Virus record (IMG/VR): IMGVR_UViG_3300017964_000030
Coordinates: 1 to 41,185 of that record
Reading direction: 5' to 3' (one strand)
DNA: 41,185 bases
Source of the DNA: a virus
Shown here: positions 43 through 40,618 of the stretch, piece by piece
Layout of the letters: every line of letters begins with the position of its first letter
How positions within the stretch are numbered: position 1 is the stretch's first letter
Notes under the pieces: model-generated
What the model saw: only the letters and a program-made list of their open reading frames with translations
The model's database searches: none
Told to the model about the DNA's origin: nothing
Made by a program: the position numbers and the translations under genes

Positions 43-746
43 GAAGGTTTCCAACATAACGAGAGGCGCATTCTACATATCGAATATGCAAAAAAATGGT
101 AAACGCCTCAAAAAGTAGACGAATGACATATCGTCGAACTAAAAACATTCTTTAGGTTTTTTTTTGAAAAACTTAAAAATAAATCCATCTAACCTATTAA
201 ACGCCGCTATTGGTAGCCTATTGGGGTTCGCCCTATAGAGAACCTATATAAAAAGCGAGGCTTATTTCAGTGTTTTCGGGTGTCAGACAAGTGTTTTACA
301 TTTGTAAAACAAAGTTCCATTTTGGCAACAATACACCAAAGATAACGAGGGAAACCGAATAACAGCCTGTTTTGGTCGAAATTGACCCAGGTAGAGGACA
401 AACGGAACGGCAGGAGCGGGCGGAAGTAACCAAGGCGGAACAACATTGTTGCCGGAAGTGTATTTTCTTGTCCGAGAGTAACCTTGGTTCCGCAACTCTG
501 AATCTAATTTCAAAAGTAGACACGGAAAGCGAGTTCCTAAGTATATATAATATTAAAACATTAATACTTAGTAATAATATGCGCGTATATAGTAAGTTGT
601 TACTTACTGTCAAGAGAAAAATTCACGCCGCGTATAAATTAAAATAATTTGAACGGGCGACTTGAAGTTGTTGTTGCACCGATCATGCACTCCTACTATG
701 TAATCAAGCTAGCAAGCACGACGAGCTGTTAGCTTCATTTTTTCTG
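43..746. other. Long stretch with no convincing gene
   Basis: About 700 bases without a gene I can defend. Visible are an AU-rich hairpin with nine T's (CTAAA/TTTAG, 139-165, a possible weak terminator for the gene ending at 42), GAGGCG at 62-67 facing CGCCTC at 104-109, and an inverted pair AACCAAGG (428-435) / CCTTGGTT (482-489). There are AT-rich runs near 541-580 and one copy of the dispersed palindrome at 589-606. Open frames here on both strands overlap one another and lack Shine-Dalgarno sequences. Confidence 0.4.
589..606. promoter_or_regulatory. Dispersed palindrome, site 1
   Basis: ATAGTAA-GTTG-TTACTTA. The right arm is perfect and the left arm has two mismatches to TAAGTAA. A second, overlapping symmetry (AGTAAGT/ACTTACT, 591-608) exists because each arm is itself a 4-bp tandem repeat. 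It lies in gene-free DNA. Confidence 0.7.
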
Positions 747-752
747 TATAAT
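747..752 (+). promoter_or_regulatory. -10 element of putative promoter for the 791 gene
   Basis: A perfect TATAAT lies 2 bases before palindrome site 2 and 39 bases before the next start codon. I see no good -35 at the right distance, so the promoter may depend on an activator or may not be real. Confidence 0.4.
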
Positions 753-754
753 TA

Positions 755-772
755 TAAGTCAATACTGACTTA
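755..772. promoter_or_regulatory. Dispersed palindrome, site 2
   Basis: TAAGTCA-ATAC-TGACTTA. This is a perfect palindrome in which both arms carry the same A-to-C/T-to-G change. Such a paired substitution suggests that symmetry itself is under selection. It begins 2 bases after a TATAAT, over the expected start point, a classic operator position. Confidence 0.75.
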
Positions 773-790
773 CACTATAGGACGCTAAAC

Positions 791-1237
791 ATGGAACACA
801 ATCTAAACGAATCCAAGAGTAAAGTATTTTATCAGGAAAATTTAAGCGAGTTGCTTAAGGATCTTTCACTGGACACCTTCAAAAAAGCAATCTTTCATGA
901 TTGTTATATAACGGATGAAAAGTTCGGAGAGTCCGATCAAGATACAAAGATCATCTTTTTTGAGCTGAATGACATCATGGAGTGTCCTTTAGAGTCTCAC
1001 GAGAATATGACTTGTCTCATTGTTGAGTTAGATAAGCTCACCTTTGAAATTCACATCGACGGAAGTGTTTTCAGCGCGACTCAGTTTTTTATGCTTGATT
1101 TAGAAGACATTCACGGATGGATTGAAGATAGCAAGTATCCAGAAGTCTCTGAAGCTTGGTATGACTATCTAAAGGATACACTTTGCACTTCTATCTCTTC
1201 GAATATTGCGATCTTAAAAGAAAGTTCTGTTCACTGA
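791..1237 (+). CDS. Unknown acidic protein, 148 aa
   Basis: I do not recognise this protein. It is acidic, with no membrane segment or signal peptide; predicted structure is mixed alpha/beta, with a beta-like stretch near residues 75-100 (TCLIVELDKLTFEIHIDGSV). The start is fixed by AGGACGCTAAAC directly before ATG, a leader shared base for base with the gene at 2483 and nearly with the minus-strand gene at 1833. It is probably an early gene under palindrome site 2. An 11-bp inverted repeat (1246-1288) and a strong intrinsic terminator (1296-1319) follow, so it seems to be a single-gene unit. It could be a host-takeover protein, but nothing in the sequence proves this. Confidence 0.75.
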   Translation: MEHNLNESKSKVFYQENLSELLKDLSLDTFKKAIFHDCYITDEKFGESDQDTKIIFFELNDIMECPLESHENMTCLIVELDKLTFEIHIDGSVFSATQFFMLDLEDIHGWIEDSKYPEVSEAWYDYLKDTLCTSISSNIAILKESSVH

Positions 1238-1245
1238 TTTAAAAG

Positions 1246-1288
1246 CTTTCGGATGTGATTCTCCGCTCCAACTTCCTACATCCGAAAG
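1246..1288 (+). other. Inverted repeat after the 791 gene
   Basis: CTTTCGGATGT (1246-1256) pairs perfectly with ACATCCGAAAG (1278-1288) around a 21-base loop, 7 bases before the terminator. It may protect the 3' end of the mRNA or help termination. Confidence 0.55.
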
Positions 1289-1295
1289 TCTTTAG

Positions 1296-1506: not shown

Positions 1507-1524
1507 TAAGTAAGTTATTACTTA
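1507..1524. promoter_or_regulatory. Dispersed palindrome, site 3
   Basis: TAAGTAA-GTTA-TTACTTA with perfect arms, extended by one more base pair on each side. It lies 36 bases before an orphan terminator and has no gene immediately downstream. Confidence 0.8.
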
Positions 1525-1559
1525 TTATTCTTTACCGCATAGTCATTAAATTACTCAAT

Positions 1560-2349: not shown

Positions 2350-2355
2350 CAGTAG

Positions 2356-2440: not shown

Positions 2441-2458
2441 TAAGTAATAATTTACTTA
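2441..2458. promoter_or_regulatory. Dispersed palindrome, site 4
   Basis: TAAGTAA-TAAT-TTACTTA with perfect arms. It abuts a -10-like TATTGA on its left and stands 24 bases before the start of the 2483 gene. Confidence 0.85.
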
Positions 2459-3032: not shown

Positions 3033-3050
3033 TAAGTAAGGTCTTACTTA
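3033..3050. promoter_or_regulatory. Dispersed palindrome, site 5
   Basis: TAAGTAA-GGTC-TTACTTA with perfect arms. Its last base is the A of the ATG at 3050, so a transcript starting inside it would be leaderless or nearly so. The AAGG within it (3038-3041) may serve as the ribosome site for longer transcripts. Confidence 0.8.
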
Positions 3051-4488: not shown

Positions 4489-4506
4489 AAAGTAAGTTTT
4501 TACTTA
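4489..4506. promoter_or_regulatory. Dispersed palindrome, site 6
   Basis: AAAGTAA-GTTT-TTACTTA, one mismatch in the outer left position. It ends 8 bases before the -35 element of the 4629 promoter, an upstream position more typical of activator binding than of simple blocking. Confidence 0.75.
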
Positions 4507-5584: not shown

Positions 5585-6061
5585 CTATTTGGTAAGAATG
5601 AAATTGTTCTCTTGGTTAGCTGCAACCGTGACCTTTCTGCAAACCAATCCGCCTGACCAGTTTCCATTAGGCAGCATCCACTTTATAGTAGTCACCAGGT
5701 AATAGTCGCCTTCGGCGACATTACTGAATTTGAATCGGCCGTCCGCATCGCCAATTTCCGTTTTGATGTATTTTAGGTATCTTGAGTCAGCCTTGGTAAG
5801 AGCGCCTTTACCTTTGCAGTGATATTCGAAAAACTGATCACTGTAGCTGGTCACAGGATTGAGATTGATCTCGACGCCTGCCGCTCGCTTAACGTCACCG
5901 CCGTTTGTAGTAAGAAACGCTTGGCCGCTTACCACTTGTTCGCCAGAAGTAACCAGGCTTTCGTATTCAGCCACAGGGAAGGGGATTCTTTGAGTCTTTT
6001 GTTGTGGGGCAGCACAGCCAGCGATAACACCGGCAACAAGAAGAGCAACAAGGGCTTTCAT
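5585..6061 (-). CDS. Predicted phage-encoded lipoprotein, 158 aa
   Basis: The N-terminus MKALVALLVAGVIAGC is a type II signal peptide with lipobox VIAGC and lipid-modified Cys16, so the mature protein should be anchored in a membrane, probably facing the periplasm. I chose the ATG at 6061 because GGAG lies 6 bases before it; an upstream ATG touches the ribosome site. Residues about 105-135 (DGRFKFSNVAEGDYYLV) resemble the carboxypeptidase-regulatory-like/transthyretin beta fold. It is monocistronic, opposite to its neighbours, with its own promoter and leader, as expected for a moron. Superinfection exclusion or surface change is a reasonable inference, not shown. Confidence 0.8.
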   Translation of the reverse strand: MKALVALLVAGVIAGCAAPQQKTQRIPFPVAEYESLVTSGEQVVSGQAFLTTNGGDVKRAAGVEINLNPVTSYSDQFFEYHCKGKGALTKADSRYLKYIKTEIGDADGRFKFSNVAEGDYYLVTTIKWMLPNGNWSGGLVCRKVTVAANQENNFILTK

Positions 6062-6079
6062 AGTCATCTCCATATAACA

Positions 6080-6238
6080 GGTAAAGAAAAAGGGGCTTTC
6101 GCCCCTTTCTATGAGTGTAACACTCAACCCACTATCGTCAGGTAATCAGCCATCAGGGTCACGGTGTTTTGAGATCTCTCATCTGGTGAAAAAAGTCACC
6201 AGCACTTTTAAGGATTTGTGGTCATGAACGAACCACAA
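6080..6238 (-). ncRNA. Leader RNA or small RNA, about 155 nt
   Basis: Read on the minus strand from about 6237, there are three perfect inverted repeats: TTGTGGT/ACCACAA (6216-6238), CTGGTGA/TCACCAG (6183-6202) and TGAGTGT/ACACTCA (6112-6126). The terminator hairpin (6082-6108) follows. A 9-codon frame beginning MADYL lies between the second and third. The set of consecutive hairpins with a final terminator resembles a regulatory leader (attenuator, riboswitch or protein-binding leader). It may also act in trans as a small RNA. No known riboswitch class was recognised. Confidence 0.5.
6082..6108 (-). terminator. Intrinsic terminator in the leader of the lipoprotein gene
   Basis: On the minus strand, AAAGGGGC-GAAA-GCCCCTTT runs into TTTTTCTTT. 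It stands after the minus promoter and just before the ribosome site of the lipoprotein gene, so every transcript from that promoter must pass it. This is the layout of an attenuator or of an independent small RNA. Confidence 0.75.
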
Positions 6239-6243: not shown

Positions 6244-6272
6244 AGTATCGGTTGTCCAAAAAAATGTGTCAA
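6244..6272 (-). promoter_or_regulatory. Sigma70 promoter, leftward
   Basis: On the minus strand, TTGACA (6272-6267), exactly 17 bp, then GATACT (6249-6244). The -35 is a perfect consensus. Palindrome site 7 overlaps the -35. The transcript would run into the hairpin leader and the lipoprotein gene. Confidence 0.7.
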
Positions 6273-6282
6273 CACTTACTTA
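6265..6282. promoter_or_regulatory. Dispersed palindrome, site 7 (degenerate half)
   Basis: On the minus strand TAAGTAA-GTGT-TGACACA. The distal arm is perfect and the arm over the -35 matches at four of seven positions, as if changed to keep TTGACA. It is the weakest member of the family. Confidence 0.5.
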
Positions 6283-7100: not shown

Positions 7101-7349
7101 TTAAAGCAGATCGTCAATAAAGGTCATGCTTTCGAGTAATTCTTGAGAGACGCGACACCGGACGTAGGATGAAAAGTTGGACTTGGGAGGGATCTCTTCT
7201 TTGTAGATCATCAGTAGAGATTCCGCATCCAGCGATTGACTGGCTGCTATCTTATCAATCGCCTCCCAGAAAACCTTTTCAAGAGTTATGGAAGAGCGTT
7301 TACCGTTAAACGATACGTTTCGCTTTTCATTATCAAACGGAGTCATCAT
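7101..7349 (-). CDS. Ribbon-helix-helix domain protein, 82 aa
   Basis: Residues 17-45 (KRSSITLEKVFWEAIDKIAA, then SQSLDAESLL) fit the ribbon-helix-helix RHH_4 type (PF13467): a basic beta strand with Ser-Ser-Ile-Thr-Leu, an acidic-aromatic first helix with Phe-Trp, and a second helix. Such proteins dimerise and insert the strand into the major groove. AAGGAGG lies just upstream. The ATG at 7349 overlaps the TGA of the helicase gene, so the two are co-translated. As the only clear ribbon-helix-helix protein here, and lying in the unit whose divergent control region contains palindrome site 8, it is a candidate binder of the dispersed palindromes. RHH_4 members are not all proven repressors. 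Confidence 0.7.
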   Translation of the reverse strand: MMTPFDNEKRNVSFNGKRSSITLEKVFWEAIDKIAASQSLDAESLLMIYKEEIPPKSNFSSYVRCRVSQELLESMTFIDDLL

Positions 7350-8833
7350 GCTGCCTCCTTAAGTAAGCTGAAATCAAATTCATCAACAATGCCCTCGCAG
7401 AAGCCAGGTGTTTCCTCAACGATGGCCCTACGTTCTCGCGCATGATCTCTAAGATGCTTGTTGAAACGGTCAACGAAGTCCACGACAAAGCAGATATTAG
7501 CGCCTTTCTTTTTGGCTCGAAGTCCACGACCAATTCTTTGTCTATTTGCCACCTCTGCTTTGCCTCCGCCCGCAAGAATGACCATACCTACGGCGGGAAC
7601 GTCCACACCAACGTCCAATATAGTTGTTCCAATCAAAACGAAATTGCCGCCCGCTAGTTTAGCCAGTCGCGCTTTCCGTTGTTCCTGATTGTGTTGCGAG
7701 TAAATGAAATCACTATCGATGCCGAGTTCTGTGAGCTTCTGTGATAGGATTTTTCCATGATCCTTGCGCTGAACTAGGATCATCACTGGAAGTCCTTGCC
7801 GGACTCCTGAGATTGCTTTATCCACAATGTCATTGTTTCTAAATTCATTGTGAACGATTCCCAGTTTGTAAGCCCGTTGATAACCCGACCCAGATCTGAC
7901 TTCTTTAGGCGCTTTAGAGTTGATGAACTGGAAATAGGGTTTTGCCAGGATACCGCAGTTGATCAGATACTCCTCTGATACCTTGATACCAATGATTCCA
8001 GACGAAGCCATTAATCGCATGTTGTCGCATTCGTTTGATTTCATGAATGGCGTGGCTGTTAGCGCTAATCGATAGTGCGCGTTTTTGCATAGCTTCATAA
8101 TATTGAAAAACGATTCCCCAGAGGATTCATGAGCCTCTTCAAGAATAACGAACTCCATACACTGTAAAACACGAACGGTCTCCTCCCGTCTTTTAAGATG
8201 AGCATCGACCTTTTCACTGTCCCATTCTGGATCTGGATCTGACAATCGGGCGGCCAATGTTTGAACCATTGCTACATTCATTCCCTTCTTTGGAGACCAA
8301 ATCCCATCTCCCATGTAACCAACGTCAAGACCATCACCCTTGAAGGCGTCAGCCATTTGGTGCATAAGCAGACCGCGAGTTGTTAAAAACATGGTAGGGC
8401 GCTGAATTCGTGCGTAAGCCAGTCTAGCAATTCGAGATTTACCACCACCCGTTGCGACTTGGGCGATCATCTGTCTTAACGAAACCAGACGATCAACGGT
8501 TTGCATTTGATAGTGATACCGAGGATCTTCAGGAAAGGAATCGATGATCGGCTTTTCGGGACCGAGTGGTTCGGGAGCTGGCAGTGACTTAACTATCACT
8601 CTATAACCTAGCTTTTCCAATTTCATTTTGACCAGGCGAACAAATCCGGCAGGGAAAGTTGCGCTGTCATAATCAAAGAATGTGGATCTTCCGTCCCAAT
8701 CCCCGGCAGACATATACTCAGAGCCAGCCACCTTGTAGCTAAGAATGTCATTCATAAGGAGTTTCAAGTCTGTGCTGGCCTCCTTAATTTTGGCTGCCAC
8801 AGCATTGTGAGCTATTCGTGCAATTTTCGACAT
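7346..8833 (-). CDS. SF2 DEAD/DEAH-type helicase, UvsW-like
   Basis: A 495-residue superfamily 2 helicase. Visible motifs: motif I ATGGGKS (127-133), motif II EEAH (232-235), motif III TAT (259-261), motif V region TTILDVGVDVP (403-413) and motif VI QRIGRGLR (432-439). A segment RYHYQMQTVDRLV (105-117) sits where the Q-like region should be. In phages such helicases unwind branched DNA or R-loops during recombination and replication, as T4 UvsW does. The N-terminal 100 residues are not recognised. It is leftward, divergent from the ParB operon, and its stop overlaps the start of the ribbon-helix-helix gene. No strong ribosome site precedes the ATG at 8833. Confidence 0.9.
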   Translation of the reverse strand: MSKIARIAHNAVAAKIKEASTDLKLLMNDILSYKVAGSEYMSAGDWDGRSTFFDYDSATFPAGFVRLVKMKLEKLGYRVIVKSLPAPEPLGPEKPIIDSFPEDPRYHYQMQTVDRLVSLRQMIAQVATGGGKSRIARLAYARIQRPTMFLTTRGLLMHQMADAFKGDGLDVGYMGDGIWSPKKGMNVAMVQTLAARLSDPDPEWDSEKVDAHLKRREETVRVLQCMEFVILEEAHESSGESFFNIMKLCKNAHYRLALTATPFMKSNECDNMRLMASSGIIGIKVSEEYLINCGILAKPYFQFINSKAPKEVRSGSGYQRAYKLGIVHNEFRNNDIVDKAISGVRQGLPVMILVQRKDHGKILSQKLTELGIDSDFIYSQHNQEQRKARLAKLAGGNFVLIGTTILDVGVDVPAVGMVILAGGGKAEVANRQRIGRGLRAKKKGANICFVVDFVDRFNKHLRDHARERRAIVEETPGFCEGIVDEFDFSLLKEAA

Positions 8834-8864: not shown

Positions 8865-8882
8865 TAAGTAAGCGTTTACTTA
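8865..8882. promoter_or_regulatory. Dispersed palindrome, site 8 (divergent region)
   Basis: TAAGTAA-GCGT-TTACTTA with perfect arms. It lies between the divergent helicase and ParB units, right after a -10-like TAAAAT, so one bound protein could control both directions. Confidence 0.85.
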
Positions 8883-8940
8883 CTTAGATTAGAGATTATT
8901 TGTGTTTGAGTCAAATTTAACTCAAGCCGTGGAGGGGGAA

Positions 8941-9609
8941 ATGAAACAGCTTGAAATGAGTCCACACGAGCTGAGGCCAAATCCGTGGAACACCAACAGT
9001 GTTGATCCTGTGAATATGGATAAGCTCAAAGCATCCATGAAACGACTTGGCTGTTTCAAGCCGATCATCGTCCGAGAAGTTGAAGAATCAGGATTGATGA
9101 TCAATCAAATCATAGGCGGTGAACACCGTTGGAAAACCTCAATTGATCTTGGGTTTGAGAAAGTGCCTGTAATCAACATGGGAGAAATTTCTGACGCCCA
9201 CGCTAAAGAGATTTCTATCGTCGATAACGGTCGATACGGAACGGATAACCACGATGAGTTCATTAAGCTGATCGAGAGTATTGGTGCTGAAGACATTATC
9301 GACATCATGCCGTTGAGTAGTGATGAATTAGAAGATCTGATGTCCGGCTCAAGCGATGATGACTTGAAAGAACTTGAAGATCTAACTCTTGCAGACATGG
9401 AGATTGAGGCTGCACCTGAAAAGGGAGAGAAGCTTCAGTCCAACCAGGTAGTTCGATTCAAAGTGCCTATGGAAGATGCGGGCGGCGTTAAACGTGTAAT
9501 CGATAACATCAAAAAAGAGCAAGGATTCAAAGATTCAGATGCTCTTACAAATGCAGGTGACGCACTCGTCTTTCTGTGTGCCAAATACGAGGAGTTGACC
9601 GGGCTATGA
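8941..9609 (+). CDS. ParB-like domain protein 1
   Basis: The start is ATG 8941, because GGAGGGGG lies 2-9 bases before it and the conserved domain begins at once; an in-frame GTG at 8902 lacks such a site. Residues 5-90 form a ParB/Srx-like domain: LRPNPWN (11-17), a Leu-x-x-Ser helix, PIIV (41-44) and GGEHRW (59-64), the counterpart of the ParB GxxRR box. The last 120 residues are acidic and end in a segment (VVRFKVP) also seen in the next gene. Phage ParB-like proteins may be DNA-binding, nuclease or modification-associated; there is no ParA here, so plasmid-style partition is unlikely. Confidence 0.8.
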   Translation: MKQLEMSPHELRPNPWNTNSVDPVNMDKLKASMKRLGCFKPIIVREVEESGLMINQIIGGEHRWKTSIDLGFEKVPVINMGEISDAHAKEISIVDNGRYGTDNHDEFIKLIESIGAEDIIDIMPLSSDELEDLMSGSSDDDLKELEDLTLADMEIEAAPEKGEKLQSNQVVRFKVPMEDAGGVKRVIDNIKKEQGFKDSDALTNAGDALVFLCAKYEELTGL

Positions 9610-10265
9610 GCAAACTAAATATCAAGTATTTAGACCCAAAGAAGATCACCGAGTATGAAGGTAACGCAAAGATTCATACTGACGAACAGGTTAGCAAGAT
9701 TGCAGCCTCCATTGAAAAGTTTGGTTTTGACCAGCCTATCGTGGTGGACAGAGATCATGTGGTCATCAAGGGGCATGGCCGCCGACTAGCCTCCATCAAG
9801 TTAAATCTAAGTAAAGTTCCTGTCGTTGTTCGTGACGACCTTTCCCTGGCTGAAGCCGCAGCCTCTCGATTAGCTGATAACCGTGTAGCAGAAGGCAAGA
9901 ATGATCAGTCAAAGCTACAGGCAGAAATTGAGCGCATCTCAAGCGAGATGGAGGGCATGGAATTCGATTTATCAGACATGGGATTTGATGATAAAGAGCT
10001 GGATTTCTTGACGAGTGACCTGGGTGAACTCGATATGGATTCCATTGTTCAAGATATGGATGAAGAGATAGGTCGTCAGGAGGTTCATACGGCTGAAGCC
10101 ATCGATAAGGCTGAAGATGAAGTCGTGACCTTCAAGAGCGTCTTCGGGACAAACAATTTGACCTTAAAGCAAGCCAGAACTATTCGATCAATTATTGCCG
10201 AAGCCGACTCTGATGATCGAGTTCAGGGTTTTGTTAACTATCTCGAAGAGCATTTGGTGGCCTAA
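9606..10265 (+). CDS. ParB-like domain protein 2
   Basis: ATG 9606 overlaps the previous stop (ATGA) and has GAGGAG upstream. Residues 5-85 form a second ParB-like domain with EYEGNAKIHTDEQV (16-29), QPIVVD (43-48) and KGHGRR (55-60), closer to the classical GxxRR motif than its neighbour. The middle is very acidic (Asp/Glu/Met-rich, residues 110-160). The C-terminus has VVTFKS, matching VVRFKV in protein 1, so the two are probably paralogues after a tandem duplication. It is tightly coupled to the ATPase gene (TAATG overlap), which suggests they act in one process. Confidence 0.82.
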   Translation: MSKLNIKYLDPKKITEYEGNAKIHTDEQVSKIAASIEKFGFDQPIVVDRDHVVIKGHGRRLASIKLNLSKVPVVVRDDLSLAEAAASRLADNRVAEGKNDQSKLQAEIERISSEMEGMEFDLSDMGFDDKELDFLTSDLGELDMDSIVQDMDEEIGRQEVHTAEAIDKAEDEVVTFKSVFGTNNLTLKQARTIRSIIAEADSDDRVQGFVNYLEEHLVA

Positions 10266-12367: not shown

Positions 12368-12642
12368 GATTGACGACTAAGCAAAAGCAAATCTTAACAG
12401 TCATCTACAAGGGACAGGGAGAGTCTGGTAATAGAGTGGATGTCGATCTTTCCAATCTTATTGCGTCATTACCCTACGAGACGACAAGAGACTCTATGCA
12501 GTTTTCTATCCGGGCGCTAATCAAGAAAGGGCTTATCAGTAAGAATGAGCTTGAGCTGAGAGAAGAGCGGTTCCATGTGACCTATAAGTTGAGTCCACTT
12601 GGCATCGAGGTTGTGAAAAAATTTGGCTTGGAGAATAAGTAA
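12364..12642 (+). CDS. Winged-helix DNA-binding protein, 92 aa
   Basis: GTG 12364 overlaps the GNAT stop (GTGA). The product fits a winged helix-turn-helix: helix 1 TKQKQILTVIYKG (4-16), a second helix around DLSNLIASLPY, a recognition-like helix SMQFSIRALIKKGLIS, and a two-strand wing (ELREERFHVTYKLSP). It closes the ParB-ATPase-GNAT operon. Palindrome site 9 overlaps its stop codon and stands before terS. It is therefore a second candidate for the protein that binds the palindromes, perhaps as the switch from this operon to the late genes. Confidence 0.7.
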   Translation: MRLTTKQKQILTVIYKGQGESGNRVDVDLSNLIASLPYETTRDSMQFSIRALIKKGLISKNELELREERFHVTYKLSPLGIEVVKKFGLENK

Positions 12643-12653
12643 GATTTTACTTA
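12636..12653. promoter_or_regulatory. Dispersed palindrome, site 9
   Basis: TAAGTAA-GATT-TTACTTA with perfect arms. Its left arm contains the stop codon of the winged-helix gene (AAG-TAA), and it ends 9 bases before the terS start. Confidence 0.85.
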
Positions 12654-14538: not shown

Positions 14539-14556
14539 TAAGTAAGCGCTTATTTA
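14539..14556. promoter_or_regulatory. Dispersed palindrome, site 10
   Basis: TAAGTAA-GCGC-TTATTTA, one mismatch in the right arm. It sits in the only gap between terL and portal, 32 bases before the portal start. Confidence 0.75.
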
Positions 14557-14588: not shown

Positions 14589-16103
14589 ATGAATGATAAA
14601 GTTGATGCTACTAAGGTTATTAAGCGAAAGCACCCAGAATACGACTCATTGTCTGATCACTGGGAGTTTTTGTATGCAACCTATTATGGTGGCCGCAAGT
14701 GGTTCAAGGATAACATTTTTCGTTATCACAAAGAGGGCAATGATGAGTTTAATCAACGCCTGGAACGCGCTTATCGATTTAATCATTCACGAGAGATTGT
14801 TGATCTGGTCAATAAGTATTTATTCCGACCAACAATTGAAAGGCCAGAGGAAAATGTAAACTCTGATCTTACCAAGTTCCTCGAAGATACCCGAGGCTCT
14901 GGAAAAGCTTCGTTTTCAATCGATGATTTTATGAAGTTAGCGAGCAGGCTATCTTCGATGGTTGGACGAAGCTACGTTGTGATCGATAGATCTGGCGAAG
15001 TTAGTGGAAGAAGCAAATCTGACGCTAATCACGTTAAGACCTACGCCTACATTGTTTTGCCAACAGATGTGTTGGATATGGCGTTTGACGACAGCGGAGA
15101 TCTGGTTTGGATATTGATTAGAGAGTTCACCCGAGATGATGACAATCCGTTTGAGGGATCAGGTGAAGTTTCCGAGAGATACCGCCTTTGGACAAAAGAA
15201 AAATGGTATTTGATTGAGAAGCCCAGTAAAAAAAGCAAAAGCGCTAAGTATCATGTTACAGATGAAGGGGATCACAAACTTGGCCGTGTTCCCGTAGTAA
15301 TCATCGACAATGCAGAGACAGACAGTAAATACAGTTGTCCGGCTCTGATTGGTGACATTGCATACCTAGATCGAGCTATTGCTAATTATCTGTCTAACCT
15401 TGACGCCATTATTCAGGATCAAACGTTCTCGCAGCTTGCGATTCCCGCACAAGCGTTAACGCCTGGTTCTGATGCAGAAAGGCACATGGTTGAAATGGGA
15501 ACAAAGCGTGTATTCACGTTTGATGGAGAAGGTGGAACTCCGTTCTTTCTTTCGCCAGACCCTAAGCAAGCTCAATTAATTATCACCGTTATCCAACAAG
15601 TCATTAATGAGATTTATCACTCAGTAGGTGTAGCCGGAGAGCGAACTAAGCAGGACAACTCTGCTGGAATCGATAACAGCTCTGGCGTTGCAAAAGCTTA
15701 CGACTTTGACCGTGTGAATTCACTTTTATCATCCAAAGCTAAAATCCTTGAGAGAGCCGAGAATGAGATCTGTGAAATCGTATGTCTGTGGAGTGAATCT
15801 GACATTGGTGACTACAAAGTTTCTTACCCAAGAGAGTTTGATGTTAAGTCGCTTTCTGACGAGATAGAGATTGCCAACGATTTGTTGCTTATCTCTGCAC
15901 CTATGGAAGTAAGAAAAGAGCAGTTCAAGTCTGTCATTAAGAAGCTGTTTAAGGCTTCAGGAAAAGACAAGCAAGAGCGGCTAATGAAAAGCCTTGAAAC
16001 CTGGGAAGACTCTCTGGATTTAAGCAAAAGTTTATTAAGTAATTCTCGGCCTGAAGCCGAATCAGACCCTAAATCTGAGGATTTGGAGTCCAATAATAAG
16101 TAA
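14589..16103 (+). CDS. Portal protein
   Basis: 504 residues directly after terL, the standard place for the portal. The sequence has the expected mixed N-terminal region with aromatic residues (HWEFLYATYYGGRKWF, 18-33), a wing/crown body and a long helical segment in the second half (AQLIITVIQQVINEIYHSVG, then AKILERAENEICEIVCLW). The acidic Ser-rich C-terminus is probably flexible. The dodecamer forms the DNA channel at one vertex and the docking site of the terminase. No clear Shine-Dalgarno sequence precedes ATG 14589. The stop codon lies inside palindrome site 11. Confidence 0.85.
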   Translation: MNDKVDATKVIKRKHPEYDSLSDHWEFLYATYYGGRKWFKDNIFRYHKEGNDEFNQRLERAYRFNHSREIVDLVNKYLFRPTIERPEENVNSDLTKFLEDTRGSGKASFSIDDFMKLASRLSSMVGRSYVVIDRSGEVSGRSKSDANHVKTYAYIVLPTDVLDMAFDDSGDLVWILIREFTRDDDNPFEGSGEVSERYRLWTKEKWYLIEKPSKKSKSAKYHVTDEGDHKLGRVPVVIIDNAETDSKYSCPALIGDIAYLDRAIANYLSNLDAIIQDQTFSQLAIPAQALTPGSDAERHMVEMGTKRVFTFDGEGGTPFFLSPDPKQAQLIITVIQQVINEIYHSVGVAGERTKQDNSAGIDNSSGVAKAYDFDRVNSLLSSKAKILERAENEICEIVCLWSESDIGDYKVSYPREFDVKSLSDEIEIANDLLLISAPMEVRKEQFKSVIKKLFKASGKDKQERLMKSLETWEDSLDLSKSLLSNSRPEAESDPKSEDLESNNK

Positions 16104-16114
16104 TAAATTACTTA
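16097..16114. promoter_or_regulatory. Dispersed palindrome, site 11
   Basis: TAAGTAA-TAAA-TTACTTA with perfect arms. The portal stop codon is part of the left arm (AAG-TAA), the same design as site 9. Confidence 0.85.
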
Positions 16115-17100: not shown

Positions 17101-17118
17101 TAAGTAAGAAATTACTTA
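17101..17118. promoter_or_regulatory. Dispersed palindrome, site 12
   Basis: TAAGTAA-GAAA-TTACTTA with perfect arms, 29 bases before the capsid start and right after an A/T-rich GAATAG. It would allow separate control of the capsid gene. Confidence 0.85.
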
Positions 17119-17147
17119 CATTATTTTAGGCAATGTGGAGGAATACC

Positions 17148-21761: not shown

Positions 21762-21779
21762 TAAGTAAGTATTTACTTA
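21762..21779. promoter_or_regulatory. Dispersed palindrome, site 13
   Basis: TAAGTAA-GTAT-TTACTTA with perfect arms. It overlaps a TATAAT (21778-21783); a TTGACA-like TAGAAA lies 17 bp upstream of that, so the palindrome would fill the promoter spacer. A terminator stem begins 5 bases further on. Confidence 0.85.
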
Positions 21780-21784
21780 TAATG

Positions 21785-21809
21785 GGCGTATCTATGATAC
21801 GCCTTTTTT
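21785..21809 (+). terminator. Intrinsic terminator before the tail chaperone genes
   Basis: GGCGTATC-TAT-GATACGCC followed by six T's. It lies between tube and chaperone genes, probably lowering expression of the latter. A transcript starting at the TATAAT just upstream would lack the left arm of the stem and escape it. Confidence 0.85.
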
Positions 21810-27935: not shown

Positions 27936-30900
27936 AAAAGGTCGTTACGGTAAAAAGCATTGATAATCCGCTTCAACCATCAGTAAGCGGCATTACTGAG
28001 CATAAATTACATTGGCGCGAAGGAATGAATCTTAGCGCCGTAATTGCGGTTTTAAACCCATCCTTGGATTATGTAATGGTCTTAAATGGCCAGTTAATCC
28101 AAGAAGGCGATTGGGGCAGCACAAGACTTCGAGCGGGCGACTTTGTTGTAATTTCTGACATACCAAGAGGCGGAGGCGGAGGAGGTAAAGGCATTCTTCG
28201 TATAGCTTTGACAATCGCTATCGTGGTGGCAGCAGCCTATACGGGTGGCGCGGCAGCAGGTTTTTTGCAAACAACATACGGTTTATCAGCGGCAGCGACT
28301 ACTGCTGTTGGAGCAGGTATCACGGCAGCAGTAACCATTGCAGGAACAATGGCCTTAAACGCTCTTTTGCCACCTCCGACTCCTGACACTTCGGCTAGAA
28401 GCTACGATGTGACACAAGACTCACAGACCTATGGGTTTGAGGGGCCAAAAAATACCGCTAGAGAGGGTATCGCCGTTCCAATTTGTTATGGACGGCATAC
28501 GATGGCCGGTAACTTAATCTCATTGTTCAATCAGAACGATGGCGATGATCAAAATCTCTATATGCTCATTAATGCAGGAGAGGGATCTATTGCCGGATTC
28601 TCAGATATTAGAATTAATGATCAGCCATACCGTGACTTTGATGGGGCAAATGTAGCTACAAGATTAGGATCTGAAGATCAGTCACCGATTCCTTGGTTCG
28701 GCTCAGTTGTTGAGTCTCACAATATGCAGGGACAGAGATTGGCTGATGACGATTATATCTACTTTGAAAGCCCTGAGATTGCCGAGCGCTTTCAGTTTGA
28801 CTTTTACTTCCCGCGTGGCCTTGTTGCTTATGGCAGAGACAGTGGCAATAAACTTACGGCTAAAACAAAGATTTCAATTGAATATTCACCCGTGGATGAG
28901 AATACCTGGCAGAGCTTGACGGTATTAAGTTCTCTTGATCGATCTAGGCACACCTCGGACATTTATTTGTCAGATCTAGATCTTGATGAAGAGGTCTCAT
29001 TAGAGTGTGACTACGAAGATTACGACGCAAGCCCAAACTGGATTGCAAACAAACAAAAAGTGTATGGCATCGCAAGCGGGAAGGTTTTTGAACACACTGG
29101 CGGAGGCGGCTCTTCGGTAATTGAATTCTCATCGAAAAAGAATTCTACAGTTAGACGAAGTGTGACCTCAGTAGGTAATCAACTCGATAGCGGAACAAGA
29201 TACAAATTTCGTTTTAAAAGATTAACGAAAGAGGCAGATTCAAACTATCTAGTTAACCAAATCAACATCTCTGAAGTGAAAGTAATCAGAGATTACGGTG
29301 TTGGCATGTCTAACACGGCTCTTTTAGCGCTAAGAGTCAAAGCTACTGATCAACTAAATCAAACACCGAAAGTTACATTCAGACACTTAGGTAAGTTGGT
29401 AAAAGTTTATGACCCATCAAGCGACAAATGGTTTTGGAGAAATTCTTCGAATCCAGCTTGGATTGTTTGGGACATGATGACCAATACGAGGTATGGAGCT
29501 GGAATAAAGAGAAATCGAATTATATTGAGCGCATTTATCGAGTGGGCTGAATACTGCGAAGAGCATAATCTTCAATTTAATGGTGTTTTCGATGTTCGTC
29601 AGGGCGTTTGGGATGCCATTAAAAATGTTGCTCGTGTTGGCCGTTCACAGATCATCATGGAAGGGACTAAGTTTTGGCCAGTAGTATATCAACTGAAAGA
29701 TCCGGTAATGCTGTTCAACAATGCCTCTATCATTAAGGACAGCTTTTCGATTACTTACATTCCTTCATCTGATCGAGCGAATGTTATCAATTACTCGTAT
29801 TTTGATAAGACCGACTCCAACCGACAGAAGACGGTGAAGCTTGTCAGCACCCGCTCTCTGGATAGAGGGGATGACATAAAAGAACTTTCGGTTGTTGGTC
29901 TTGGTATCGACAATTATGAGCAAGCCAGAGAAGAAGCTAAATTGATGCTCAATATGAACGAGTTTATCAATCGCCAGGTTTCTTTTTCCGTTCCTACAGA
30001 ATCACTCGCTGTAACTCTGGGCGATGTTGTTATGATCCAACATGACATGCCATCGTGGGACTTTGGCGGTCGTGTGGAGGAAGGCTGCACTACAACAGAA
30101 ATCATCTTAGACGGCGATTACTCTCAGCTTAATCAAGAAGATGACTATCAGGTATTTATCCAAACCAACGCCAAGGATTTAGGTTCTGTGCAATTGACAC
30201 AGATCGTTGGTGATTATGTGTATGTCGACGCCATTCCTGAAGGAAATAACATCAAGCGCTTAGTTGTTAATGGTAACGACTATGAGGTGAAGTCCGTAAA
30301 AGAGTTCGAAGGTATTGGATTCGCTTTGGAAATGGATTCAGTTCTAGGTCTTCTGCCAGGAATGGCTGTTAACCTTTGGGATACCGATGTTATTGAGATG
30401 CAAACAGCCTCATTCAGTGCGGATGCTCCCGATAGAGTTACAACCTATGCGCCATTTAGTTTTGTCCCATCCAAAGGGGATAAGTTTATGGTTGGCCCAT
30501 TAATAAATAAAAGAGCAACTTACCAGATCCAAGCAATTTCTGGGGATGGATTTCACGAGCGCCAGATTACTTGCATCGAATACACCCCGGAGTTGTTTAT
30601 TTCGGGTGAAGTTTATGAGCAGCCTGGATACGGCAATCTCAATAAACTTAGCCACTCAGTGTTAAGTGATAATGGATTTGAGGAAGAATTACTTCCTATC
30701 GGTGACGTTGTAAAAACCAGATTATCAATCGACTTTTACAACGACAGCCCAATCTATCGAGAGACCAAAGTTTTACTTTCCAGAGCCAATGGAGAGTTTA
30801 TCGATTACGGTAATCATTTCAGCTCGTTCCAAATTGACGTTACAGAAGGCGAGTTGATTAGGATTAAGTTGGTTGCTAGGGACACTTTAGGTCGATACAT

Positions 30901-32425
30901 GGCTGAAACTTCAGCCCCAGAGTATTCACATACGGTTGTTGGAAAATTAGCACCCCCTCAAGATGTGAAGAACGCAATAATCGAGAAGGTGATTGGCGGG
31001 ATTCGCATGTTATGGGACAACGTGAGTGATATTGACCTTGCGGGTTATTCAATCAAAGAAGGCGATTCATGGGATTCTGGCGTGACTTTGGCCGATCTTC
31101 ACAAATCCACAAATATCTTTATCCCTATTTCTAGCGAAGGTCAGAGACGTTATTGGATCAAAGCGGTAGATACATCCGGCAATGAATCTGAGAGTCCATT
31201 GTTAGCTGAGGTTGATATTGACCCTCCTTCTCAAGTGACTGGTTTCTTGGCCGTCCAAGACGGTAACTTGGTTAGCTTAAGATGGGACGTGCCTATCACA
31301 GCAAAAGAAACTGGTATTGAATACATTATTCGTAAGGGCGATACCTGGAAAACTTCTGTTGAGGTGGCTCGAACCACAGGTGACACATATAAGATCAATT
31401 CTGAAACCAAAGGGGATAAGATTTACTGGATCAAAGCGAGAGACATTATCGGTTTGATGAGTAAAGAACCGTCTTTTGCCACCGTGAAAGTTGATTATTT
31501 GAAGGATCGAAATGTCATCAAGACAGACGACCATTCAGCAGACGGTTATCCCGGTCGACTTGTTAATCTTGAGAAATCTGGGGATAGGCTTCAGAACATC
31601 AAAGGTCGAGTAGAAGGGGATTATCTCTTTAAAGCGACAACGCCATACCCCGTTTACGCCCGTAATTTGGTTGCCATGACCCTGACAGCCGTTAAGGATG
31701 TGGGAATTCCTTGGGAGGATGCAACTTTTACCTGGGACAGCGAAGAGGCGAGACAAAGGTGGCTTCCAGAGGGAGAGATCACGGATGTTGATGCCAAATT
31801 GTTTATGTCCGGTAAATCAGACAGTGTTATCACCAGCACTAAAGATTTGTTAAAAGTTGGCTTGCATGATGACACCAACATTGATGGATACAACACGGTT
31901 TACGATGAGAATGGTGACTGGCTTCCGGCAGACGAAACACCTTCAATTGAACAGAATGTAGTTGTAGATCCAAATGACGGTCGATTTGTTGGAGGTGCGG
32001 TGATCACAACAAACTCTCAATTGGAATATGACTGGCCAATAGCAGTCTCACCGATTGATTCTATGTTCCAGTTTTGGGTAAAGGCGAATTCAAACTCACA
32101 AGATCAGGTGATTTATTTCCAAACAGAGTTGTATGTATCAAGCCAAGCAAACCTCAAGACCAAGATCTTCATCGGAAGGGATGGTCACGGTCGCTTCTTC
32201 TGTCGAGATGATTTTGGCAGGAAAATGAGATTGAGCATGGAATTTAACGATGGCGAGTTGGTTCTTATTGCCTTCAAGCAAACTGAGGATGTCAGAAAAT
32301 TCTATGTTGGCAAGCAGGGCGGAGAGATTTTAGCTTCGGAGCTTGAGCATTGCCCGTTAATTCCAGAGGGAGACGCTCTGTCAGGGGTGAATTTTGATAG
32401 GCGTAAAGTTAAGTTTTCGGCTTAA
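27926..32425 (+). CDS. Tail-tip host specificity protein, gpI-gpJ fusion
   Basis: 1499 residues from GTG 27926, which overlaps the previous stop. Residues 1-90 look like gpI: a small beta domain ending in a glycine run. Residues 95-150 are hydrophobic (LTIAIVVAAAYTGGAAAGFL, then TAVGAGITAAVTIAGTMALN), as in gpI/gpJ junctions, followed by LLPPPTPDTSARSYD. The body is the gpJ-type hub, with fibronectin-III-like repeats at about 1010-1190 (LWDNVSDIDLAGYSIKEGD; SLRWDVPITAKETGIEYI). The C-terminus is a jelly-roll-like beta domain. It forms the central tip and determines receptor choice. Confidence 0.88.
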   Translation: MAVEKVVTVKSIDNPLQPSVSGITEHKLHWREGMNLSAVIAVLNPSLDYVMVLNGQLIQEGDWGSTRLRAGDFVVISDIPRGGGGGGKGILRIALTIAIVVAAAYTGGAAAGFLQTTYGLSAAATTAVGAGITAAVTIAGTMALNALLPPPTPDTSARSYDVTQDSQTYGFEGPKNTAREGIAVPICYGRHTMAGNLISLFNQNDGDDQNLYMLINAGEGSIAGFSDIRINDQPYRDFDGANVATRLGSEDQSPIPWFGSVVESHNMQGQRLADDDYIYFESPEIAERFQFDFYFPRGLVAYGRDSGNKLTAKTKISIEYSPVDENTWQSLTVLSSLDRSRHTSDIYLSDLDLDEEVSLECDYEDYDASPNWIANKQKVYGIASGKVFEHTGGGGSSVIEFSSKKNSTVRRSVTSVGNQLDSGTRYKFRFKRLTKEADSNYLVNQINISEVKVIRDYGVGMSNTALLALRVKATDQLNQTPKVTFRHLGKLVKVYDPSSDKWFWRNSSNPAWIVWDMMTNTRYGAGIKRNRIILSAFIEWAEYCEEHNLQFNGVFDVRQGVWDAIKNVARVGRSQIIMEGTKFWPVVYQLKDPVMLFNNASIIKDSFSITYIPSSDRANVINYSYFDKTDSNRQKTVKLVSTRSLDRGDDIKELSVVGLGIDNYEQAREEAKLMLNMNEFINRQVSFSVPTESLAVTLGDVVMIQHDMPSWDFGGRVEEGCTTTEIILDGDYSQLNQEDDYQVFIQTNAKDLGSVQLTQIVGDYVYVDAIPEGNNIKRLVVNGNDYEVKSVKEFEGIGFALEMDSVLGLLPGMAVNLWDTDVIEMQTASFSADAPDRVTTYAPFSFVPSKGDKFMVGPLINKRATYQIQAISGDGFHERQITCIEYTPELFISGEVYEQPGYGNLNKLSHSVLSDNGFEEELLPIGDVVKTRLSIDFYNDSPIYRETKVLLSRANGEFIDYGNHFSSFQIDVTEGELIRIKLVARDTLGRYMAETSAPEYSHTVVGKLAPPQDVKNAIIEKVIGGIRMLWDNVSDIDLAGYSIKEGDSWDSGVTLADLHKSTNIFIPISSEGQRRYWIKAVDTSGNESESPLLAEVDIDPPSQVTGFLAVQDGNLVSLRWDVPITAKETGIEYIIRKGDTWKTSVEVARTTGDTYKINSETKGDKIYWIKARDIIGLMSKEPSFATVKVDYLKDRNVIKTDDHSADGYPGRLVNLEKSGDRLQNIKGRVEGDYLFKATTPYPVYARNLVAMTLTAVKDVGIPWEDATFTWDSEEARQRWLPEGEITDVDAKLFMSGKSDSVITSTKDLLKVGLHDDTNIDGYNTVYDENGDWLPADETPSIEQNVVVDPNDGRFVGGAVITTNSQLEYDWPIAVSPIDSMFQFWVKANSNSQDQVIYFQTELYVSSQANLKTKIFIGRDGHGRFFCRDDFGRKMRLSMEFNDGELVLIAFKQTEDVRKFYVGKQGGEILASELEHCPLIPEGDALSGVNFDRRKVKFSA

Positions 32426-32428: not shown

Positions 32429-32446
32429 TAAGTAAGTTCTTACTTA
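32429..32446. promoter_or_regulatory. Dispersed palindrome, site 14
   Basis: TAAGTAA-GTTC-TTACTTA with perfect arms, 3 bases after the tail-tip stop. A TATAAT (32445-32450) starts in the right arm, with TTAATA 17 bp before it, so a promoter may run through the palindrome. Confidence 0.85.
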
Positions 32447-37242: not shown

Positions 37243-37260
37243 TAAGTAAGTAATTACTTA
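37243..37260. promoter_or_regulatory. Dispersed palindrome, site 15
   Basis: TAAGTAA-GTAA-TTACTTA with perfect arms, between the adhesin and lysis genes and 14 bases before the holin start. A -10-like AATAAT ends inside it. Confidence 0.85.
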
Positions 37261-37274: not shown

Positions 37275-37646
37275 ATGTTAGTCATAAAAGAAGAGGGCGT
37301 AAAAGCTGTAGTCATTCATCGTGACCAGACCGTCAATGTTGGCGCGTTAAACCCAAGCTTGCCCGAAGATCATGGGGACACCTTCGTGTATCTATCGATC
37401 ATCATGGTTTTAGGCGTCATTGCAAAGAAGCTCTCTTCAAAAGAGCCACTTGATTGGAAGCGATTCATAGGTGAGATGATCTTCTCATTTATCGGAGCAA
37501 TAGCTGTCTACCTGGCGGGAGACATTCAGGGCTTCGATAGCAAAATGATTCTTCTTATGGGCGCTCTGATGAGTCTTGGAACGGTCAGAGCATTTGAGTG
37601 GTTCGTCAAGATACTTGGTGTATTAAACAAGATGGTGAAACCGTGA
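37275..37646 (+). CDS. Holin (probable)
   Basis: 123 residues with three hydrophobic segments: about 36-51 (DTFVYLSIIMVLGVIA), 66-82 (GEMIFSFIGAIAVYLAG) and 90-105 (KMILLMGALMSLGTVR). The C-terminus is basic (KILGVLNKMVKP). It overlaps the endolysin gene by 4 bases. This fits a three-helix holin which opens the inner membrane at lysis. The ribosome site is weak, in line with tight timing. Confidence 0.78.
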   Translation: MLVIKEEGVKAVVIHRDQTVNVGALNPSLPEDHGDTFVYLSIIMVLGVIAKKLSSKEPLDWKRFIGEMIFSFIGAIAVYLAGDIQGFDSKMILLMGALMSLGTVRAFEWFVKILGVLNKMVKP

Positions 37647-38122
37647 AATGGCCTAAAAACTTCAAATTGTGGGAATTCCTTAAGTCCGATGTTGCCGCTC
37701 GAAAAGGGATAGACAACACACCCGACGACCACTCCATAGTTGAAAATCTAAAGCACACCGCCTGGATTCTTCAAGAGCTTAGAAACGAAATTTCTAGGTT
37801 CAAAAATAAAGACACTCCGATGACGGTATCTTCAGGTTTCCGTTGCAAGAAATTGAATCAAGCCATAAAGGGCGCGAAGAACTCTGATCACATGAAAGGA
37901 TTGGCGGCAGATGTCAAAGTGATTGGCGTTAAACCTGCCGACTTCTACAAGTTCATCAAAGAAAGACCTTACCTTCATGATCGAATCAGTAAGGTAATTT
38001 TGGAGTTTGATTCGTGGGTTCACATCTCTATTGCGGAAGAGTCCACTAAAACCCAGTTCTTAATCGCAAAGAAAGTAAGAAAGTGGGGACGACTCGTGAC
38101 AGTCTACGAGTCAGATACTTAA
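37643..38122 (+). CDS. Endolysin, M15 peptidase family
   Basis: GTG 37643 overlaps the holin stop (GTGA) and begins a domain that starts KWPKNFKLWEF; an earlier in-frame start would lie inside the holin. The 159-residue product has the zinc site SSGFRCKKLNQAIKG, SDHMKGLAAD (His83, Asp90) and WVHISI (His127), typical of Peptidase_M15_3 (D-Ala-D-Ala carboxypeptidase/L-Ala-D-Glu peptidase-like lysins). There is no signal peptide, so it depends on the holin. No spanin genes are obvious nearby. Confidence 0.88.
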   Translation: MKWPKNFKLWEFLKSDVAARKGIDNTPDDHSIVENLKHTAWILQELRNEISRFKNKDTPMTVSSGFRCKKLNQAIKGAKNSDHMKGLAADVKVIGVKPADFYKFIKERPYLHDRISKVILEFDSWVHISIAEESTKTQFLIAKKVRKWGRLVTVYESDT

Positions 38123-38994: not shown

Positions 38995-38996
38995 TT

Positions 38997-39284
38997 ATGA
39001 GAATGTGTCACGAGAAAAGATTAAATGTCACTGGCGAACAGACCATCACTGTAATGAGTGAGGCTACAAATTACCAAGTATCTCTGTATGGAACTGGTAG
39101 TGTAGCCATTTACTTTAAAGTAGATAGCTTTGATGTTGAAGAGCCATTGGAAGACGGCAATATCACCCTGTCCTCTACAGAATCAAAGACCGTCCGCATT
39201 GAAAATGTCAGCTTATCTGCAATTATTCTAAAGCCAACAAGTAATGCAGATGCTTACAGTGCTGTCGTTGCGGGTATCAGCTAA
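38997..39284 (+). CDS. Small beta-rich protein, 95 aa, unknown
   Basis: ATG 38997 starts 2 bases after the previous stop, with GAGGG upstream. The 95-residue product alternates in beta fashion: NVTGEQTITVMSEATNYQVS, then GTGSVAIYFKVDSF and ESKTVRIENVSLSAIILKP. It could be a small structural or fibre-accessory protein. Its stop overlaps the start of the hydrolase gene (TAATG), which suggests a partnership with it. No family is recognised. Confidence 0.65.
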   Translation: MRMCHEKRLNVTGEQTITVMSEATNYQVSLYGTGSVAIYFKVDSFDVEEPLEDGNITLSSTESKTVRIENVSLSAIILKPTSNADAYSAVVAGIS

Positions 39285-40516
39285 TGAAGTTTAGATCAAT
39301 GTCGGGGCTAGGTGTTGTAGCCCAGTCTTTAGTTGCGAATTCTGTTAGACCAACATCCTTCACTTTAACTAGAGGTTTACTCAATATTGATACAGTCGTT
39401 GTATTTGGCGCAAGCATAATGGCTCAGTCATTTGGCGACATATCAGGCGTTGAAAGCAAGTTTCTGGATGCTGGAATCCCTGTTGATGTCTATGATCGCG
39501 CTACAAGTGGGGATGATACTGATGCAATGATCCTGAAACTGTCGGCGGTTATTTCTGAGTTTCAGCCTAATGCCTCTAGAACGTTATTCGCTATTCACTG
39601 GGGCGGGAATGATGTATCAAGGGAGGGGCCTTATCCTGGTGGAGCATCAACAATGGAGACTAACATGCGCTCAATGTTATCAGACATTAAGAACGCCGGT
39701 TTTAAGATAATGATGAGCGACATTTCGTATCGAGTGCCCCCAGCTTCGAATCCATCTCAACCATACAATGATGCTTTTATGTATCAATTGCAGTCAGAGT
39801 TCAACGATGTAGATTGGTTCTTATATCAGTTCACATTTGATAATCAGTCAGAGTTAGAAGTAGATGGAATACACCCTGGCTCATCTTTAGAGAGTTCTAT
39901 TAGACAATATCTTGTTGACCAGTCAAAAGAGCATTTGATGAGAGTAGCAGAGGACACTGCAATCGTTAAGGATGTGGTCATTCAGTTCGGCAATAACTCT
40001 CTAATGCAAAGGGCTGCTGGTAGTAATGTCATAGCAACCAATGGAACTATTACAGATATACGCAATTCCGACTATTCAAAAATTTTAGGGTCGTCTGTTA
40101 CCGTAAGCGGTGCTAACTCTGTCAACAATAATGGCAGGGGGAACACTGCTGACATTGGGAACGAAACCATCTCCTTGTTTAACGATGAATGCCTGAAGGA
40201 CAGTTTATACATCACGTCAACAGAGCAAATGGATGTCGATCTTAGTGGTTTGCCCTTGGTTGATTCAGGTCTTTACACCATAGGCATTACTGCCAGTAGA
40301 GGTTCTGACACAGGAACGAGAATTACTGAATACACTGTTGATGGCGTTACAAAGACGCTGGATGCAGAACTAGCTGTTCCTAGTCAGGTGTATTTTTACA
40401 ATGTATCTGGAGCAAATCTGAAGACGAGCGGCATTAAGATAAATGCTCAGGAGGGTAGCGTCTATGGTTATATTTCTATAGCCAAGATAGAAAGACAGGG
40501 AAGTCAAATCATCTAA
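39284..40516 (+). CDS. SGNH/GDSL-type hydrolase with fibre-like C-terminus
   Basis: 410 residues. SGNH blocks: block I VVVFGASIM with nucleophile Ser44, block II DRATSGDD with Gly76, block III HWGGND with Asn109, and block V VDGIHP with Asp194 and His197. The catalytic set is complete. Residues about 225-410 are Ser/Thr/Gly-rich beta repeats that end in SIAKIERQG, resembling a tailspike tip. No signal peptide is seen. It probably de-esterifies host surface sugars as a virion protein. A cytoplasmic esterase is the alternative, though the late location argues against it. Confidence 0.82.
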   Translation: MKFRSMSGLGVVAQSLVANSVRPTSFTLTRGLLNIDTVVVFGASIMAQSFGDISGVESKFLDAGIPVDVYDRATSGDDTDAMILKLSAVISEFQPNASRTLFAIHWGGNDVSREGPYPGGASTMETNMRSMLSDIKNAGFKIMMSDISYRVPPASNPSQPYNDAFMYQLQSEFNDVDWFLYQFTFDNQSELEVDGIHPGSSLESSIRQYLVDQSKEHLMRVAEDTAIVKDVVIQFGNNSLMQRAAGSNVIATNGTITDIRNSDYSKILGSSVTVSGANSVNNNGRGNTADIGNETISLFNDECLKDSLYITSTEQMDVDLSGLPLVDSGLYTIGITASRGSDTGTRITEYTVDGVTKTLDAELAVPSQVYFYNVSGANLKTSGIKINAQEGSVYGYISIAKIERQGSQII

Positions 40517-40571
40517 TCACCCTTAATTTGTCAAAAGTAGATCCGAAGTCCCATCTCCTAATATTTAACAC

Positions 40572-40599
40572 TTGCTAACTTTAAAAAAATACTAATAAT
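40572..40599 (+). promoter_or_regulatory. Putative sigma70 promoter for the last gene
   Basis: TTGCTA (40572-40577), a 16-bp spacer, then AATAAT (40594-40599), one base before palindrome site 16. The geometry is the same as at sites 4 and 8. Confidence 0.5.
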
Positions 40600-40600
40600 G

Positions 40601-40618
40601 TAAGTAAGTAGTTATTTA
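40601..40618. promoter_or_regulatory. Dispersed palindrome, site 16
   Basis: TAAGTAA-GTAG-TTATTTA, one mismatch in the right arm, covering the expected start point of the last promoter. It lies within the loop of the long inverted repeat. Confidence 0.75.

Follow-up and report, generated by a model that had tools for sequence, protein, structure and literature searches.

A dispersed palindrome as the probable repressor operator of SSU5-type phage-plasmids

Phage lambda has six operators at two promoters, and the half-sites of the symmetric lambda and 434 CI operators are read by helix-turn-helix (HTH) domains of the Cro/C1 kind. The principle of a dispersed repressor is also already known: phage P1, a phage-plasmid, has 22 C1 operators distributed over its genome (PMC8546580), and mycobacteriophage L5 and other cluster A phages carry up to ~30 sites per genome, with a lineage-specific consensus that varies with the repressor (PMC6550527). 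Here, we describe the palindrome TAAGTAA-N4-TTACTTA, which recurs at 16 positions in a 41,185-nucleotide stretch of viral DNA (IMG/VR record IMGVR_UViG_3300017964_000030, positions 1 to 41,185; referred to below as the window), and follow it through related elements. Judging from its sequence context, this palindrome very probably serves the lysogeny (immunity) repressor of SSU5-supergroup phage-plasmids as its operator.

Temperate members of the supergroup carry 12 to 45 palindromes per 100- to 120-kb genome, in which they resemble P1, with its ~20 or more dispersed repressor sites per phage-plasmid. However, P1 operators are 17 bp long and asymmetric (ATTGCTCTAATAAATTT), whereas the present sites are 18-bp palindromes for which we infer a small XRE-type binder. 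L5-type sites are 13 bp, asymmetric, mainly in one orientation and mostly off promoters (PMC6550527); the present sites, in contrast, are symmetric in pooled half-sites and overlap core promoters above chance. The candidate binder shares with lambda and 434 CI an HTH domain (here Pfam HTH_3), but Pfam matched only N-terminal HTH families in its ~130 residues and no peptidase domain, such as the C-terminal self-cleaving S24 peptidase of lambda CI. Unlike those of lambda, moreover, the operators number dozens and lie genome-wide. We found no earlier description of dispersed operators in SSU5-type phage-plasmids in the open-access papers searched, and the papers listed as matches when the arm sequences were used as search text were all unrelated. 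The lysogeny regulators named in the consulted passages of a review from 2024 are those of other phage-plasmids, with none given for the SSU5 group (PMC11652158). The system, its symmetric operator and the specificity code presented below look new.

The palindrome in the window and its relatives

All 16 positions listed in a preliminary description of the window do hold the motif (Table 1). That description counted eleven copies with exact 7-bp arms; we count ten, the eleventh perfect palindrome being the site at 755, where, as it had noted, a compensated change gives TAAGTCA-N4-TGACTTA. In Pararhizobium p5 and RHph_N1_10, the TAAGTCA form is itself the consensus of the lineage. At up to three mismatches, the window contains 24 matches (overlaps included), whereas shuffling that kept dinucleotides gave 2.0 +/- 1.5, and none of 100 shuffles came near the observed figure (largest count, 7); the reversed pattern, used as a control, gave 2 matches at up to two mismatches. 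The copies had been described as intergenic or touching only a stop or start codon. Indeed, 16 of 16 centres fall outside the open reading frames (ORFs) of a window that is 10% non-coding (binomial P = 2e-16, with the ORFs chosen by hand), and at 12636 and 16097 the site takes in the stop codon of the gene before it. Far from being equally dense inside genes, the motif is strongly intergenic. The 4-bp centre is constant in length, as had been claimed, but its bases do not vary freely: of 353 sites (window and relatives pooled), 72% have a pyrimidine-purine step at the centre, and G is favoured at site position 8 of the same set.

Genes of the window code for a helicase, two ParB-like proteins (8902-9609 and 9576-10265), small and large terminases, portal, scaffold, capsid and tail proteins, an endolysin and PhoH. 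Its capsid protein is 47 to 55% identical to those of Stenotrophomonas phage ANB28, Pseudomonas phage nickie, Escherichia coli phage Cyrano and Salmonella phage SSU5, and relatives of its terminase occur on ~980 plasmids, chiefly of Klebsiella, Escherichia and Acinetobacter. On the evidence of these relatives, we place the window phage in the SSU5/nickie supergroup. As supergroup relatives measure 100 to 120 kb, the 41-kb window, a linear record, is probably a fragment from which roughly 60% of the phage genome is missing. A megablast search of its late region against phages gave no match. No contig extending the 5' end was found; at the 3' end, another contig (IMGVR_UViG_3300017968_002820, or L459) overlaps the window with 100% identity over 1,092 bp and adds ~5.8 kb to the phage, with long ORFs and two further operators.

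Sites in relatives were counted by a scan of viral contigs and over whole records, using the pattern TAAGTAA-N4-TTACTTA with its reversed form as a control. Six viral contigs of 87 to 121 kb (G003 and G011 to G015) hold 20 to 33 sites at no more than one mismatch and no reversed match. When two mismatches were allowed, the counts were 44 in pLM21S1, 43 in Shinella, 41 in B1VFA, 39 in RHph_X66, 21 in Klebsiella pJN2-26, 18 in SSU5 and 12 in Acinetobacter baumannii p6200, with 0 to 2 reversed matches in relatives. A lineage position weight matrix gave 30 sites in Cyrano, 29 in SSU5, 31 in pJN2-26 and 0 in both nickie and ANB28; the palindrome was found in none of the five Nickievirus-type/Stenotrophomonas members tested (nickie, hairong, Nican01, ANB28 and BUCTxx99). 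As in the window, site centres in Cyrano lie mostly between annotated genes (26 of 28, in a genome 12.5% non-coding; P = 1e-21). When palindromes were counted de novo, this core again came out among the top families in most of the genomes that bear sites, in the lineage variants TAGGTAA in SSU5, TAGTAAG in p6200 and AGTCAAT in Pararhizobium, while in Shinella the core was not prominent by exact counting. Over the lineages, the consensus is the 18-bp palindrome TAAGT(A/C)A-N4-T(T/G)ACTTA.

When window genes were mapped onto the relatives, the same junctions were found to bear sites despite protein identities of only ~42 to 61%, a comparison in which the gene models of unannotated genomes are crude and many records are akin to one another. 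These junctions are the divergent helicase/ParB region, the large terminase (TerL)/portal and scaffold/capsid boundaries, the surroundings of the Ig-domain gene, and the regions upstream of PhoH and of the homologue of the 40626 ORF. Both the helicase/ParB and the TerL/portal sites are kept in most site-bearing relatives (the former as a more degenerate copy in SSU5 and pJN2-26, the latter degenerate in Cyrano), and the centre of the TerL/portal site lies ~21 bp past the extrapolated terminase end in most of them. The scaffold/capsid site is kept in several relatives, the site before the 37275 homologue in G012 and G015, and that before the 40626 homologue in SSU5, Cyrano and pJN2-26. Pararhizobium, in which the exact motif is missing, has the TAAGTCA form at the corresponding junctions. 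The intergenic bias and the orthologous junctions support the phage-wide operator set proposed in the preliminary description, while five supergroup members lack the motif.

Promoter register, candidate repressor and specificity code

Promoters were scored against the E. coli consensus, requiring at least 4/6 matches in both hexamers, with shuffled flanks (200 shuffles) as controls. At the TerL/portal junction, the palindrome fills the 17-bp spacer between -35 and -10 in pLM21S1, G011, G010, G014, Shinella and Pararhizobium (TTGATT-17-TACAAT in pLM21S1, TTGCAA-17-TACAAT in G011 and TTGACG-17-TACCAT in Pararhizobium), in such a register that the last TA of the palindrome is the first TA of the -10-like hexamer. 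Scoring of all offsets made -10 starts stand out at site positions -4, 11, 17 and 34. Registers 17, -4 and 34 were seen at 27, 18 and 9 of 217 gene-oriented sites, versus 7.1, 3.3 and 2.3 with shuffled flanks (shuffle maxima 14, 9 and 9) and 9, 9 and 2 in the opposite orientation; the gene direction is thus favoured, and the commonest register is that in which the palindrome fills the -35/-10 spacer. With dozens of such operators over the core promoters of the lytic blocks (replication, ParB-like, terminase, portal, capsid, tail and lysis), a single small repressor could silence the lytic programme while the element persists as a plasmid or prophage.

The preliminary description spoke of two candidate regulators, but none of the needed kind was found in the window; the gene beside site 6265 (5585-6127, minus strand) was rejected, its product being lipoprotein-like. 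The regulator is more likely of a kind seen in relatives. When genomes with sites were compared with nickie and ANB28, a ~130-residue XRE-type HTH protein emerged, which matches Pfam HTH_3 and PHROG transcription regulators and which we predict to be, most likely, the binder of the palindrome. An AlphaFold model shows a helical HTH head (predicted local distance difference test score, pLDDT, ~90), and in Foldseek it resembles phage and restriction-controller repressors, with weak matches that include 434 Cro and the lambda/434 repressor. By profile search, the protein was detected in 14 large records that have TAAGTAA sites, as well as in four elements of alphaproteobacteria with the TAAGTCA form (three quantified; the fourth is W20), and not in the five site-free phages; SSU5, which has sites and no such protein, is an exception to this co-occurrence. 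Terminase-bearing bacterial genomes have exactly one homologue in 12 of 12 cases, mostly on the same contig. The Cyrano homologue, CYRAN_45, has been named a putative repressor, and its transcripts stand 10-fold above background in an E. coli LF82 lysogen, in which few other Cyrano genes are transcribed (PMC9928086). When we placed 13 lysogen-expressed Cyrano genes by hand, only CYRAN_81 had a site, and a weak one, within 300 bp upstream. In K/R/Q-type loci (defined below), a site lies no more than 350 bp upstream of the HTH gene in 13 of 33 cases versus 3.5 expected, and a G011-like lineage has sites at about -128, +480 and +760 relative to this gene; the repressor would probably also control its own gene in many lineages.

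The sequence of the operator varies with that of the protein. A code was first noticed on ~20 proteins, checked on 22 genomes and then tested on new loci, the search patterns for which selected N or K/Q/R protein types and not operators. Among 67 loci with at least three sites (35 N and 32 K/Q/R), operator base 6 tracks one recognition-helix residue, N going with A and K, R or Q with C (Mann-Whitney P = 2e-11, kinship ignored). The fraction of C at base 6 per locus is 0 to 0.83 in N loci (median, ~0.13) and 0.60 to 1.0 in K/Q/R loci; in pooled half-sites, C occurs in 155 of 740 (21%) and 463 of 540 (86%), respectively. The AlphaFold model puts the code residue just before the recognition helix, and it may be the counterpart of Gln28 of the 434 repressor. 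Since the operators of the window have 29 A and 4 C at position 6, its phage is predicted to have an asparagine-type repressor, encoded outside the fragment. In Xenorhabdus/Morganella elements (L293, L294 and L299 to L301), the homologue has a GYSAHN/GYTAHN recognition helix, and TAAGT-type sites are few.

Alternative readings and the case of SSU5

Several observations weigh against a lysogeny repressor acting at promoter operators. No suitable regulator was found in the window, and neither the window nor the 5.8 kb that extends it yielded a homologue of the HTH protein. G012 has 26 sites and no detectable HTH protein (although this contig may be incomplete), and G001 has a homologue and no clear sites. 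Two small alphaproteobacterial plasmids (W06, CP031754.1; W11, NZ_CP036517.1) have homologues and no dispersed sites, so the family may also be used outside phage-plasmids. The P value for covariation takes no account of kinship; the terminase tree has five switches, with three well-supported independent pairs that are nearly always concordant and too few for significance, and the repressor tree has one well-supported switch pair. Exceptions to the code are mostly GYENPN-type helices (N type, Photobacterium), which go with mixed A/C operators. Finally, at the chosen cut-offs and by the E. coli consensus, a recognisable sigma-70 promoter accompanies only about one-quarter of the sites.

This last figure, together with the many sites that lie within operons right behind stop codons, would suit stoperators, at which the repressor sits mostly off promoters and halts elongating RNA polymerase, as in mycobacteriophage L5. 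The preliminary description drew this parallel while pointing to the asymmetry of the L5 sites. The contrast in symmetry stands, L5 stoperators being asymmetric and mostly without promoter association (PMC6550527), and the three enriched registers, with near-consensus -35 and -10 hexamers at conserved junction sites, favour promoter operators. Because the sites are symmetric and often at core promoters, promoter operators appear to be the better fit and stoperators alone are unlikely; a mixed mode with both would also be compatible with these data. It is less probable still that the sites belong to an activator, or are phage-specific promoter elements, turning lytic genes on. Nearly every lytic block is preceded by sites, as such a role would have it, but the inferred site centres, at ~+1.5, -19.5 and -36.5 from transcription starts, overlap the core promoter in the manner of a repressor, and the linked HTH gene is transcribed in a lysogen whose phage genes are mostly near background (PMC9928086).

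Centromere-like or KorB-like sites for the two ParB-like proteins of the window are very improbable. One of these genes does have a site just upstream, and KorB, a ParB relative encoded by IncP plasmids, has operators that are dispersed; however, nickie and ANB28 encode both proteins and have no palindromes, on which ground ParB binding was rejected, and the variation of the operator follows the XRE protein. Weakest is the RNA-processing hairpin suggested in the preliminary description, or one acting in stability or termination, which is scarcely credible: transcribed arms could pair (~-3 kcal/mol) and many sites directly follow stop codons within late operons, but over 353 sites arm pairing equals the product of the column frequencies, with no covariation within a site (at positions 6/13, C-T 40 and A-G 23 versus compensated C-G 4), the mean folding energy is a mere -2.1 kcal/mol, and core-promoter elements stand beside the sites in fixed register. 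Given half-sites that vary independently, we read the palindrome as a DNA site for a dimeric protein.

We return to the lysogeny repressor as the preferred reading. Alignment with Cyrano shows that SSU5 lacks ~3.9 kb between tRNA-Asn and a CobT-like gene, where Cyrano has its integrase and repressor genes. SSU5 has nevertheless kept its 29 sites, which fits a plaque-forming derivative that arose after repressor loss. A broader proposal, to which we give an even chance, is that one repressor family with a readable code (N to A and K/R/Q to C at position 6, with further changes between lineages at positions 2-3) controls lysogeny, and with it superinfection immunity, across the whole supergroup in several proteobacterial classes, and that free lytic members have deleted the repressor and either kept their operators (SSU5) or later lost them (Nickievirus type). 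Sequenced Klebsiella, E. coli and Acinetobacter often carry SSU5-type phage-plasmids, with Rhizobium among other hosts, and ~900 to 1,000 collection plasmids carry the HTH protein or a related terminase. The sites point to a likely master repressor, would mark the regulated operons of any member from its sequence, and would predict which phage-plasmids exclude one another. The natural series of intact elements, repressor-deleted SSU5 and operator-free nickie may serve for studying the change from temperate to lytic life in phages.

Individual sites and a second palindrome

Table 1. Copies of the palindrome in the window and their surroundings
Feature	Position	Context
Operator-like site, 2 mismatches (ATAGTAAGTTGTTACTTA)	589..606	Motif match; intergenic
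Operator, TAAGTCA-variant perfect palindrome (TAAGTCAATACTGACTTA)	755..772	19 bp upstream of 791 ORF
Operator, exact arms	1507..1524	In-register -10-like hexamer TATTAT
Operator, exact arms	2441..2458	Upstream of 2483 ORF
Operator, exact arms	3033..3050	3' edge overlaps possible ATG
Operator, 1 mismatch	4489..4506	Upstream of 4629 ORF
Weak operator-like site, 3 mismatches, doubtful on its sequence alone	6265..6282	Between divergent ORFs 5585-6127 (-) and 6298 (+)
Operator, exact arms	8865..8882	Divergent region between helicase (7346-8833, -) and ParB-like gene (8902-9609, +)
Operator, exact arms	12636..12653	Upstream of putative small terminase/DNA-binding gene (12663-13280)
Operator, 1 mismatch	14539..14556	Between large terminase (13270-14529) and portal (14589-16103)
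Operator, exact arms	16097..16114	At portal stop codon; upstream of scaffold-like gene (16170)
Operator, exact arms	17101..17118	Between scaffold-like gene and major capsid gene (17133-18047)
Operator, exact arms	21762..21779	After Ig-domain gene (21210-21746); last TA opens perfect TATAAT
Operator, exact arms	32429..32446	After tail protein J-like gene (27926-32425); last TA opens perfect TATAAT
Operator, exact arms	37243..37260	Before lysis block (37275 ORF; endolysin-like gene 37598-38122)
Operator, 1 mismatch	40601..40618	Upstream of 40626 ORF

The site at 21762 and its TATAAT are directly followed by a terminator-like hairpin with a T-run (~21784-21806). Either a transcript from a promoter at this site would be very short, or the operon upstream ends at this site.

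A second dispersed palindrome, AAACAA-N-TTGTTT, is not among the top palindromes of the window. It occurs in 9 to 11 copies per genome in SSU5, Cyrano (OV696614.1) and Klebsiella pJN2-26; the Cyrano copies are at 82, 29259, 32080, 58595, 80549, 81278, 93114, 93165 and 96286. In these enterobacterial phage-plasmids it lies mostly 24 to 48 bp upstream of annotated starts, where it may be a second operator or a 5'-leader element.

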